A stretch of 64,000 nt of DNA from Woeseia sp. (GTDB lineage Bacteria > Pseudomonadota > Gammaproteobacteria > Steroidobacterales > Woeseiaceae): NCBI GenBank assembly GCA_021773015.1, contig JAJFKW010000001.1:124001-188000 (forward strand), read 5' to 3'. Below are positions 60,828-63,910 of this stretch, one piece after another. Position 1 is the stretch's first letter, and the number at the start of each line of letters is the position of its first letter. Made by a program: the position numbers and the translations under genes. A model generated the notes under the pieces. It was not told the origin of the DNA, did no database searches, and was given only the letters and a program-made list of their open reading frames with translations.

Positions 60828-61535
60828 ATGGCCGTAAGGTATTTACGATTGTTGATTATGGCCTGTGGCGTGATGCTTGTTTCTTATTCATTAGCAACGG
60901 AGTCCGCATTGTCGAATGAGATGTGGGACGAGCCTAGCCACCAACTCGTACTGCATGAAAATAATGCGCGGGTTCTAGATATCCGCATAGTGCCCGGCGT
61001 CGTTTCCGAATATCACCGTCATCGATTCGCAACAATTTACGTGGTTATCCAAGACGCGAAGTTGTGGAATCAATTGGTCGATGGCGACTGGGCGGAAATG
61101 GGCGCTGGCCGACCTTACCGGGATGCGGGAAGCGTTATCGATAGAAGTAGCTATGTTGGTGAGCCGCAGACCCACCGAGTCAAAAACATCGATGAAAGAA
61201 CTTTTCACCTGGTTGCCATCGTTAATGAGAGCAGCGGAACCGTTTCAGCCGATCGAATTGATGATCTGGACGCATCGAAAAATTCCGATAGTCGTTGGTT
61301 TAAACGACATCACATCAGACTGCCTAACAACACACAAAGCGATATTTTGACCTTTTCGAACAATACCGTCTTGGTGCAACCGGGCCATGGCGCTAGCCAC
61401 GTTGTTGAGGACGGTATCTATCACAGCTTTAAGTCCGCACCTGGCGCGTTCTCGTGGCACCCAGCTGGCGCATCGATTCGGGTTACGAATACATCTGATA
61501 AGCAGCTCGAGATTGTGGCAATCGAACTAAAGTAA
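60828..61535 (+). CDS. Exported cupin-domain protein
   Basis: A 235-residue protein with a signal peptide (about 1-23) and a two-part beta-barrel. VSEYHRHRFATIYVVIQDA contains the cupin HxH pattern and Arg, with a second His in EPQTHRVKN; the C-terminal half repeats a weaker barrel (LVQPGHGASHVVEDGIYHSF). A metal-binding periplasmic protein is likely; no reaction is known. An inverted repeat follows. It is convergent with the P460 genes. Confidence 0.65.
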   Translation: MAVRYLRLLIMACGVMLVSYSLATESALSNEMWDEPSHQLVLHENNARVLDIRIVPGVVSEYHRHRFATIYVVIQDAKLWNQLVDGDWAEMGAGRPYRDAGSVIDRSSYVGEPQTHRVKNIDERTFHLVAIVNESSGTVSADRIDDLDASKNSDSRWFKRHHIRLPNNTQSDILTFSNNTVLVQPGHGASHVVEDGIYHSFKSAPGAFSWHPAGASIRVTNTSDKQLEIVAIELK

Positions 61536-61645: not shown

Positions 61646-62227
61646 TTAATCTTCTTCTGAGAGTACCGGGTAAGCTTCTATGTAAACCCAATCGGTCGAC
61701 TTGGCCGGGATATGGCAGCCCAGACAATCATCCTTGTAATTTGTTGCTACATTGCTGCTATTCGAAGGCGGTTTGAACAATGCCCAGCCCCAACCATCGC
61801 CCCAGATAGCGCTGTCGGGAAACCGTTCTTTCGAGTCCTTGATCATCACAAACCACTGCTTCAAGCTCGCAGTCGCATGACTGACGCCTGCACCCGTCGT
61901 ATAGTTGCCGCTCTTCGCCGAACGCAGTTCTTTTACGATTGTCGCTCCATCGGGAAACTCTCCGGTCTCGCGATAGTGTAAGAGCGAAGATTTTTCGGTG
62001 AAAACATCGTGAAATCCGGAAGCCTCACCGTCAGGTACAAACCATGAACCGAGATGGACCATAGTGCTTCTAAATTTTTTCGGGAAAAATATTTGCCCAT
62101 CGTCGCCGACATATGAAGAGAACTTTTCGCCGGCAACACCTGCCGCAGGTAACATCCCTAGCGACAGGCATAGACTGACACAAAGCATGTGGCGTATTGG
62201 CGCGGTGTATTTAGACAACACTGTCAT
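61646..62227 (-). CDS. Cytochrome P460-family protein (second copy, divergent)
   Basis: A 193-residue protein with a signal peptide (cleavage near GVAG-EK) and a P460 fold. CxxCH is CLGCH at 168-172. The strand FPDGATIVKELRS contains Lys99, in the place where the heme-crosslinking Lys of P460 is expected. The middle is more divergent than in the other copy (KQWFVMIKDSKERFPDSAIWGDGWGWALF). It starts directly after the stop of the first copy, so both are one transcript. Role unknown: hydroxylamine or NO chemistry is possible. Confidence 0.8.
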   Translation of the reverse strand: MTVLSKYTAPIRHMLCVSLCLSLGMLPAAGVAGEKFSSYVGDDGQIFFPKKFRSTMVHLGSWFVPDGEASGFHDVFTEKSSLLHYRETGEFPDGATIVKELRSAKSGNYTTGAGVSHATASLKQWFVMIKDSKERFPDSAIWGDGWGWALFKPPSNSSNVATNYKDDCLGCHIPAKSTDWVYIEAYPVLSEED

Positions 62228-62842
62228 TTAGTCCAAATTGGAATTCTTGCCACCCGCGGCAATTTCGCCAGTTCCCATACCTTCACGGAGTACCGGATAG
62301 TATTGGGTAAACACCCAGTCCGTAGCCGCACTTGCCAGGTGACAGGAGTTGCAAGCTTCCTTCGGAAATGCCTTTGCCGAAGTCGTTAGCGTCTTGTGAT
62401 CAGGGGTAGAAAAGCTGTAGTAGGCCCAATTTCCTGGTTCCTTTGGAAAATGCTTCTTACTTTTGATCGTTGCCTCCAAACCCACAAAATTGCCCTGGAA
62501 ATATCCCCTTCCGCTAACCGCGGCTTTCGAACCGACACCGACCAGCTCTTTGACAAGAATCGTTCCATCGCGAAATTCGCCGGTTTTTTTCCAGTGTTTC
62601 CAGCTGACCGGATCAATATAAACATTATGAAACTCAGGGAACGCGGCCTTGCCATCGTTCATGTCGTTGGGCGTCAGCGGCGTTCCAACGTATACCCACT
62701 CTCGGTATCCAACGGGCCGTGCAAGCGAACCGTCTTCAATATTAAAAAATTCCTCTGCTTGCGCGGTCTCTACGTGAGTTAGCGATAAAGCAACTGTTAG
62801 AACAAAGGTGAATACGACCGTACTATTGATAAAACGCTTCAT
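62228..62842 (-). CDS. Cytochrome P460
   Basis: A 204-residue exported cytochrome with a signal peptide (cleavage near TAQA-EE) and a P460 fold. YREWVYVGTPLTPNDMNDGKAAF, WKKTGEFRDGTILVKELVGVGS (Lys98) and GNWAYYSF match well with the P460 of ammonia oxidisers as I remember it; CNSCH is at 164-168. P460 oxidises hydroxylamine with NO to N2O. ATG 62842 has GGGAG upstream. It is divergent from the AraC-type gene. Confidence 0.88.
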   Translation of the reverse strand: MKRFINSTVVFTFVLTVALSLTHVETAQAEEFFNIEDGSLARPVGYREWVYVGTPLTPNDMNDGKAAFPEFHNVYIDPVSWKHWKKTGEFRDGTILVKELVGVGSKAAVSGRGYFQGNFVGLEATIKSKKHFPKEPGNWAYYSFSTPDHKTLTTSAKAFPKEACNSCHLASAATDWVFTQYYPVLREGMGTGEIAAGGKNSNLD

Positions 62843-62944
62843 GGTGATTAGGCTCCCTCGTGCTGTTGGCACTGACGTTTGAAATTCGTTGACGCATTCT
62901 CACGGCCAGGGCCACAACAGTTAGTATCTGGGAGAACCAAAATC

Positions 62945-63910
62945 GTGCTTGAACGGCTCAATGAAGACAATCCTTGCGATGTGCTTACAGACGTACTGGA
63001 AACCCTGCGGTTTAAGGGCTCCGTGTTTTTTCGCTCCGATCTTGCGGCGCCTTGGGGGATCGAGCTGCCACCGGAGGGTTTACCCCGATTCCATATCGCT
63101 CTATCAGGCGAGTGCTATGTCGGCACGAACGCTACGGATACGATGATGGTCAATGCGCAGGAAATTGTGATGCTCGCCAACGGTGGCGCACATTGGATCG
63201 CTGACCAGCCAGGACGCGAATTGATAAGCAGTCAGCGTGCGGGTGACGCATGTGAGCTGGGTGCACCGCTTTTTCAACAGGGTGACATTACCAATATGAT
63301 TTTGTGCGGACTTGTACATTTTGACCAGGCATCGCCGCACCCTATATTTAGTTCGCTGCCGGAAATTGTGCATTTTTCCGAAATGCAGAACGTCGATTCC
63401 GTTTGGTCAACGATCGCGCTCATTGAGTCCGAGATTCAGCGTACCGGGCAGCACAGTGGGCCAATCATCGACAGACTTACGGAAGTCCTCTTTCTGCGAT
63501 TGCTAGACGAGTACAGTCAGGAGAATTCTCAGTTCGCAGGATTCATAGGGGCGTTGCGCGATCGGCGACTCTATCGCGCGCTATCCCTGATACATGGAAA
63601 ACCAGAGTACCCTTGGACGCTGGCAGTGTTGGGCGACAAAGTTGGTATGTCTCGAGCAACGCTGGTACGTCACTTTCAAGATGCTATCGGATTAGCACCG
63701 ATGACATACATTGCAAATTGGCGTTTGATGAAAGCCTACAGCCTGGTGAAGTACACCTCTTCAAAACTGGACGAAATTGCTGATTCGGTCGGCTTTGCGA
63801 CAGCGCAATCGTTGAGTAGGGCATTTGCACGGTTCTACGGTATGACGCCACAAGAGCTCCGTCGCAATCAGGGCAGTGGCTCCGAAGGTAGGTCAGCCGC
63901 TAACGGCTGA
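62945..63910 (+). CDS. AraC-family regulator with cupin_6 domain
   Basis: About 321 residues. The N-terminal cupin_6 domain is clear: LTDVLETLRFKGSVFFRSDLAAPWGIELP, a region typical of this AraC subfamily. The C-terminal AraC helix-turn-helix (about 225-315) has LGDKVGMSRATLVRHFQDAIGLAPMTYIANWRLMKAYSLV and DEIADSVGFATAQSLSRAFARFYGMTPQELR. GTG 62945 is preferred, with GGGAG upstream; TTG 62879 would add 22 residues. The start is 102 bp from the P460 start, so it probably controls the P460 pair. Confidence 0.87.
   Translation: MLERLNEDNPCDVLTDVLETLRFKGSVFFRSDLAAPWGIELPPEGLPRFHIALSGECYVGTNATDTMMVNAQEIVMLANGGAHWIADQPGRELISSQRAGDACELGAPLFQQGDITNMILCGLVHFDQASPHPIFSSLPEIVHFSEMQNVDSVWSTIALIESEIQRTGQHSGPIIDRLTEVLFLRLLDEYSQENSQFAGFIGALRDRRLYRALSLIHGKPEYPWTLAVLGDKVGMSRATLVRHFQDAIGLAPMTYIANWRLMKAYSLVKYTSSKLDEIADSVGFATAQSLSRAFARFYGMTPQELRRNQGSGSEGRSAANG

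Follow-up and report, generated by a model that had tools for sequence, protein, structure and literature searches.

A 64,000-nucleotide stretch of Woeseia sp. (Woeseiaceae) DNA, which we call the window (assembly GCA_021773015.1, contig JAJFKW010000001.1, positions 124,001-188,000), carries two adjoining genes for proteins of the cytochrome P460 fold, here named A and B, opposite a gene for an AraC-type regulator. Cytochromes P460 have been studied as enzymes of nitrifiers and methanotrophs that make nitric oxide (NO) and nitrous oxide (N2O). We propose, with a probability of about 0.5, that A and B make up a stress operon of two periplasmic cytochromes, induced by the AraC protein and serving detoxification, not energy gain, in a gammaproteobacterium that is heterotrophic and probably denitrifies. 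Many bacteria have the same pair, in some cases next to genes for the repair of oxidant damage; this suggests a role in stress defence outside the nitrifiers. The features of the locus, in window coordinates and with residues placed by alignment, are as follows.

62228-62842, minus strand: gene A, cytochrome P460 of the Nitrosomonas europaea group, 204 amino acids with a signal peptide (PF16694, E = 3e-28; PDB 6e17, E = 1.5e-60)
62549-62551, minus strand: crosslink Lys98 of A
62474-62476, minus strand: catalytic Glu123 of A
62639-62641, minus strand: capping Phe68 of A
62627-62629, minus strand: His72 of A
62339-62353, minus strand: CNSCH motif of A (residues 164-168)
61646-62227, minus strand: gene B, P460-fold cytochrome of a separate clade, 193 amino acids with a signal peptide (PF16694, E = 6e-25; PDB 8gar, E = 9e-12)
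61931-61933, minus strand: Lys99 of B
61850-61852, minus strand: Phe126 of B, at the catalytic-Glu site
62009-62011, minus strand: His73 of B
61712-61726, minus strand: CLGCH motif of B (residues 168-172)
62879-63910, plus strand: AraC-type regulator with a Cupin_6 sensor domain (PF12852, E = 4.8e-32; PF12833, E = 1.7e-20)
62843-62878, no strand: control region between gene A and the divergent regulator gene, 36 bp long with the listed start and 102 bp long (ending at 62944) with the GTG start

An earlier sequence-only reading of this DNA had described two P460-fold proteins, each with a CxxCH and a lysine in a VKEL strand, lying head to tail without a gap opposite a cupin_6 AraC gene, and each element of that description is borne out. 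Both proteins score far above the Pfam Cytochrome_P460 (PF16694) cut-off of 27 bits (A, 99.1; B, 88.5), and both lysines align with the crosslink site. The stop codon of A occupies 62228-62230 and the ATG of B begins at 62227, leaving no gap. The regulator matches Cupin_6 with 111.6 bits (cut-off 26.7) and also contains HTH_18; its start is uncertain, being either TTG at 62879, as listed, or GTG at 62945, which by eye fits the homologues better. Inspection by eye also places one CxxCH and a signal-peptide-like N-terminus in both A and B, and a sequence resembling a ribosome-binding site, GAGGGAG, 5' of A. No clear ribosome-binding site was seen by eye upstream of B, suggesting that its translation is coupled to that of A. 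A search for operator-like repeats between A and the AraC gene found none, a sigma-70 promoter scan of the control region gave 3 sites against 2.0 expected, which is not above chance, and a terminator scan gave 0. Scans of A and B against NCBIfam and PHROGs returned no match.

Gene A belongs with the Nitrosomonas P460s, its closest solved relatives in a PDB search (E about 1e-60). Lys98 aligns with Lys70 of NeP460 and Lys106 of NsP460. Numbered as in NeP460, the key residues of A are Lys70, Glu96, a capping Phe (Phe41 in PMC11928373, position 40 when counted from the printed chain) and a His at 44. All four are kept in every one of the 50 A homologues that adjoin B (50/50 for each residue), and in our tree A from the window falls in the same clade as NeP460 and NsP460. 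By sequence, then, A combines the three marks of a cytochrome P460: the fold with its CxxCH, a lysine at the crosslink position and a distal carboxylate. Because these residues are kept and because of its clade, we expect A to be an active P460 that oxidises hydroxylamine. A 2025 review (PMC11928373) gives the relevant mutant data: the distal carboxylate is required in N. europaea-type P460s, a Glu-to-Asp swap abolishes NeP460 activity, and NsP460, with Ala at the Glu site, does not oxidise hydroxylamine, while its A131E mutant does.

Compared with NeP460 (PDB 2je2, 8gar) and NsP460 (6amg), A shares the fold, CxxCH, crosslink Lys and capping Phe. It has the Glu that is present in NeP460 but absent from NsP460, and its His at NeP460 position 44 is like that of NsP460. 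Unlike the Nitrosomonas P460s, it shares an AraC-linked operon with B, and its genome has neither ammonia monooxygenase (AMO) nor hydroxylamine oxidoreductase (HAO). Elsewhere in the A group, Asp occupies the catalytic-Glu site in four P460s (L023:8899-9561, L171:7077-7766, L174:5812-6483 and L173:5869-6465; L numbers denote comparison loci).

Gene B keeps the lysine, has phenylalanine in place of the carboxylate and belongs to a clade of its own. Lys99 aligns with the crosslink Lys of the solved P460s, although overall the sequence matches these only weakly and has no close PDB chain. An AlphaFold2 model of B (predicted local distance difference test score 88.3, predicted template modelling score 0.78) is most similar to the P460 6e17 (Z 16.5), with c'-beta cytochromes at Z about 14. 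Among 80 B relatives, the best 80 of at least 482 confirmed matches, Lys70, Phe at the Glu96 site and His44 are each present in 80/80, and the capping-Phe position is an alignment gap in 80/80. These loci were found with the peptide patterns WFVM[IV]KD or WGDGWGW, which include or neighbour the catalytic site, so the Phe there is partly selected. In a motif-free check, all four B-clade genes that the Pfam model recovered on its own (L152, L154, L162 and L163) have Lys70 and Phe96; two further B genes of the same class sample, L151 and L158, coincide with members of the set of 80, L101 and L036 respectively. A tree of 80 sequences puts the B-type proteins on one side of a branch with support 99/97, and the A-type and c'-beta proteins are likewise each on one side of a branch. 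The B clade contains no row with other residues at the Lys70 and Phe96 sites, and the four solved proteins in the tree (NeP460, NsP460, McCP-beta and TtCP-beta) all lie outside it.

These features set B apart from both known classes. It has the lysine of an N. europaea-group P460, lacks the distal carboxylate and falls outside the NeP460 clade. A c'-beta cytochrome has no crosslink Lys and carries Phe or Met there, a description at odds with the Lys found in 80/80. We therefore rule out a plain c'-beta by the kept Lys and the tree placement, and a recent tandem duplicate of A by the 27% identity between A and B and their separate clades. The sequence-only reading had proposed aligning both copies with solved proteins at the crosslink lysine and in the distal pocket. 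Both lysines pass, and the pocket residue divides the two: A has the Glu123 carboxylate and B has Phe126. Since the distal carboxylate is needed in N. europaea-type P460s, B should not oxidise hydroxylamine. The Phe sits at the carboxylate site but His73 is kept in the pocket, as judged from the alignment and a model built without haem. A WGDG-loop residue, position 144, is Asp or Glu in 54/61 rows, and we considered it a candidate reserve carboxylate or proton acceptor.

B resembles the NsP460 type in having the Lys and no distal carboxylate, but it has Phe and not Ala at the carboxylate site, a gap at the capping-Phe position and a separate clade. It shares its fold and a non-polar residue at the carboxylate site with the c'-beta cytochromes (McCP-beta, 6hih; TtCP-beta, 7ead), whereas McCP-beta has Phe61 where B has Lys, and c'-beta is a distinct clade in the tree. 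The 2025 review gives the name "halfway house" to P460s with non-polar pockets and describes their function as unresolved (PMC11928373). B has the look of an extensive natural family of this kind. In one B homologue (L046:1938-2450) the His of CxxCH, a haem ligand, is replaced by Asn.

The pairing of A with B recurs widely. Of the 80 B loci, 76 extend far enough to be informative about A. In 51 of them A sits immediately upstream of B, a count made up of 50 from the neighbour comparison plus L085 (10-nucleotide spacing), with A fragmentary in L084 and L091; in one more locus (L110) A is one gene away. The view of the sequence-only reading that the second copy is a partner or a different enzyme is supported: B is a different protein by clade and often a partner by position. 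Between the A stop and Pro49 of B lie no more than 200 nucleotides in 41/50 pairs, with a median of 137.5 (144 in the window). Measured to the start codon nearest the A stop, the median is 2 nucleotides, with at most 60 in 41/50; this second measure leans small, and the fixed-point distance does not. Carriers of the pair include Enterovibrio, Grimontia, Shewanella, Paraglaciecola, Thiodiazotropha, Nitrosospira, Nitrosomonas and Methyloprofundus, and the whole AraC-A-B locus is also found in another Woeseiaceae record. Nitrosospira multiformis Nl7 (L073) has the pair as well; a 2016 paper lists N. multiformis without an annotated P460, under Nmul_A locus tags that probably belong to another strain (PMC4940428).

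The AraC gene also recurs beside the pair, as it does in the window. A divergent AraC gene lies upstream in 32/72 informative B loci, within 150 nucleotides in all 32, and in 24 of these 32 it is window-like (at least 40% identical to the window's regulator). The count covers opposite-strand upstream genes, so that L079 and L111, with an AraC-family gene downstream, were scored as without. In the class sample, 6 of the 13 A/B-type loci (L147-L155, L157, L158, L162 and L163) have an AraC gene and 7 do not. Around other types of P460-family gene, AraC or methionine sulfoxide reductase (Msr) genes appeared in 0/30 short control loci (L117-L146, spanning only 3.4 kb compared with up to 10.6 kb for the B loci) and in 0/7 loci of about 6 kb. 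LysR genes occur somewhere in 21/87 loci compared.

The best NCBIfam match of the window regulator is RclR, at 86.1 bits against an equivalog cut-off of 400. The same model is the best match of all seven other regulators scanned (70-138 bits), which are encoded next to A-B, next to B or within the same plasmid islands. We did not accept filing the regulator as RclR, its score being far below the cut-off. Two cysteines, Cys125 and Cys143, are conserved in 21/21 sequences (the window's and those of 20 among the 24 window-like loci); they would allow a redox sensor, which we note as a lead only. The RclR-RclX system of Pseudomonas aeruginosa and the RclR-RclABC system of E. coli likewise place a Cupin_6 AraC gene beside one or more stress genes, and AhpD-like and RclC-like neighbours are also seen around the plasmid modules described below. 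In contrast to these systems, the window regulator scores far under the RclR cut-off, the RclC-like gene scores under its own, and the genes adjoining the window regulator encode haem cytochromes. In P. aeruginosa, according to one study, the AhpD-like RclX is under RclR control, and defence against hypochlorous acid (HOCl) and hypothiocyanous acid (HOSCN) requires both proteins (PMC7950407).

Genes for repair of oxidant damage adjoin a minority of the modules. MsrB lies directly beside the module in 11/80 loci (L041, L046, L051, L052, L092, five Thiodiazotropha loci and L110), and MsrA in 5 of 80. L077, where MsrB is 4 kb away, was not counted, and family models confirmed one representative each of MsrA and MsrB, the others being assigned by BLAST grouping. 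Twelve carrier genomes hold 31 MsrB matches in total, 1-5 each, so we estimate chance adjacency at well under 1% per locus. In the class sample, Msr genes adjoin 2/13 A/B loci, L151 (the same as L101) and L153, and are absent from 11; L153 is an A-only locus with AraC, MsrB and MsrA.

Plasmids provide a second setting. By tblastn, 39 plasmid records match B, 23 of them over at least 80% of its length. Four of the plasmid loci that we read have an AraC gene divergent from an AhpD-like gene followed by B, next to mer genes (domains checked in one). Two others, on plasmids of Aquincola and Pseudomonas aeruginosa, have A followed by a B that carries a class I cytochrome c domain at its C-terminus (L171:7863-8825 and L174:6509-7495). 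On pNY8896, A-B lies amid AraC, AhpD-like, RclC-like DUF417 and glutathione S-transferase (GST) genes, the RclC-like match being 95.5 bits, under its cut-off of 275. In L022, L025 and L091 the gene after B encodes a dihaem cytochrome c. Together with the cytochrome c domains joined to B, this gene favours an electron relay by B. The sequence-only reading had assigned the locus to detoxification of NO or hydroxylamine; we too propose detoxification, but the neighbourhoods of the relatives point to oxidant defence as much as to N-oxides.

In the open-access literature, accessible parts of PMC8649781, PMC6277846, PMC4940428, PMC7285500 and PMC3772326 included and subscription papers outside the scope, we found no account of the A-B operon, its AraC link or its Msr link. 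In the same literature no paper mentions cytochrome P460 alongside either methionine sulfoxide reductase or Woeseia, and cytochrome P460 and AraC are mentioned together only in one unrelated paper. The B relative of P460 has apparently not been studied, and the MsrB link, the plasmid setting with AhpD-like and RclC-like genes and the cytochrome c-joined B are apparently new here.

The window's genome (4.84 Mb, 6 contigs, 98.9% complete) is rich in this fold, with seven P460-family genes, five beyond A and B. In the class sample of 370 genomes, 92 have P460-family genes, the window's genome included, and the next highest count is four; among 60 related genomes searched, 9 have such genes, again with the window's genome included. 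A whole-genome Pfam search found neither AMO (PF02461) nor HAO (PF13447), extending to the genome the earlier remark that no amo or hao genes are visible in the window. As positive controls, the HAO model matches both Nitrosospira, and the AMO model matches both Nitrosospira and Methylomonas, these being the 3/12 other B carriers with an AMO match. HAO matches occur in 6/12, strong and full-length in the two Nitrosospira and weaker in Grimontia, Shewanella, Enterovibrio and Thiodiazotropha. With both models working in controls and no HAO or AMO in the genome, we ruled out energy-gaining hydroxylamine oxidation via HAO. The genome does encode a cd1 nitrite reductase, and a few kilobases away lie haem-copper oxidase-family and cytochrome c genes that we take to encode NO reductase subunits. 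Copper nitrite reductase gave only matches below the cut-off.

Under our proposal, A would oxidise hydroxylamine or a close N-oxide at a crosslinked haem in the periplasm. B would not oxidise hydroxylamine; it may bind NO or an oxidant at a non-polar crosslinked haem, pass electrons to c-type cytochromes, or do both. The AraC protein would turn on A and B in response to an oxidant or N-oxide, and the purpose would be detoxification, not energy gain. Several observations weigh against this scheme. To our knowledge, no activity, spectrum or induction has been measured for any B or for these regulators. No A adjoins B in 24/76 informative loci. Nineteen of these 24 solo-B genomes were searched; 7 have an A-type gene elsewhere (at least 126 bits), and 12 have none (best match at most 71 bits, several being metagenome-assembled genomes of unstated completeness), and therefore B has a role without A. 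All three plasmid A proteins that we read have Asp at the Glu site. No divergent AraC gene lies upstream in those Nitrosomonas, Nitrosospira, Methyloprofundus and Methylomonas loci that are long enough to judge. The Msr link is a minority in both samples and is absent at the window's own locus. Finally, the four non-nitrifier carriers with weaker HAO matches have PF13447 multihaem genes, so some carriers may have another hydroxylamine enzyme.

A different emphasis would make defence against reactive chlorine or other oxidants the main job. The Cupin_6 regulator would sense oxidant as RclR does, the pair would remove oxidants or oxidised nitrogen (chloramines) in the periplasm, and hydroxylamine would be incidental. 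RclR is indeed the best match of the window regulator and of seven others, and P. aeruginosa RclR controls the AhpD-like RclX and is itself needed against HOCl and HOSCN (PMC7950407). The neighbours agree: MsrA or MsrB in the operon, the AhpD-like gene between regulator and B in four plasmid loci (its domain checked in one), and the AhpD-like, GST and RclC-like DUF417 genes around A-B on pNY8896. However, RclR scores of 70-138 bits compare with a cut-off of 400, and RclR may be top-listed only because few Cupin_6 regulators have been modelled. Moreover, nitrifier and methanotroph loci lack the AraC gene, and no Msr or AhpD gene lies beside the window locus. We regard this account as possible, if on balance doubtful.

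An NO relay, in which A makes NO from hydroxylamine and a c'-beta-like B traps the NO or carries it to NO reductase, would suit the hydrophobic residue at the catalytic position of B, a feature shared with NsP460 and c'-beta in our alignment and in PMC11928373. The cd1 nitrite reductase with its nearby haem-copper oxidase-family gene, and a second A-B pair in the same genome that adjoins a c'-beta gene, also fit. The crosslink Lys kept by B but absent from c'-beta, and the 24/76 loci in which B has no neighbouring A, make the relay unlikely. Finally, A and B might be an ordinary pair of paralogues, with B an obligate or facultative heterodimer partner or spare subunit of A without chemistry of its own. 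The genes abut at a short, conserved distance, and NeP460-type proteins are dimers. Against this, solo B genes are under strong constraint, B forms its own clade and B is joined to a cytochrome c domain on plasmids; we consider a plain paralogue pair quite improbable.

B may, tentatively and with the odds somewhat against it, represent a third functional class within the P460/c'-beta fold. In this class a haem that is crosslinked through Lys but lacks the carboxylate would serve as an electron partner that handles oxidants or NO, by itself or together with a P460 oxidase. Its setting would be an oxidant-defence module under AraC control, found in marine heterotrophs and on plasmids, with the cytochrome pair itself common to nitrifiers and methanotrophs. 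The A-B operon in heterotrophs, with a B that lacks the catalytic carboxylate but has the Lys, is a natural test of the purpose of the crosslink apart from hydroxylamine chemistry. The links to Msr, AhpD-like and RclC-like genes make an oxidant-defence role directly testable. The A-B pair also bears on the reason why certain organisms retain several members of the fold, a question left unanswered by the 2025 review (PMC11928373).

Two further parts of this genome deserve mention. Next to B in the window, and convergent with it, positions 60828-61535 encode an exported-looking protein of 235 amino acids without a Pfam or NCBIfam match; it is outside the 25 most recurrent neighbour families of the compared loci. 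On contig 1 at about 2,439,400-2,442,190 lies a second P460 cluster (L022:9400-12186), in which a c'-beta gene is divergent from an A-B pair followed by a dihaem cytochrome c gene. This c'-beta protein matches 6hih with E = 4e-46 and has Phe at the crosslink site and Asp, not Gly, at the carboxylate site. Proteins of about 657 amino acids with similar N-termini are encoded near the cluster in the window's genome (L022:7358-9331), where a Pfam scan of the protein gave no match, and in a relative, genome G017 (L025:5393-7375). The G017 gene for a B of the second-cluster type (L025:8881-9600) appears to be split by a frame break near its N-terminus, reflecting either a sequencing error or decay. 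In the same place as in the window's genome, G017 also has a c'-beta homologue (L025:10588-10998), 69% identical, with the haem motif CYNGH in which Gly replaces the second Cys of CxxCH.

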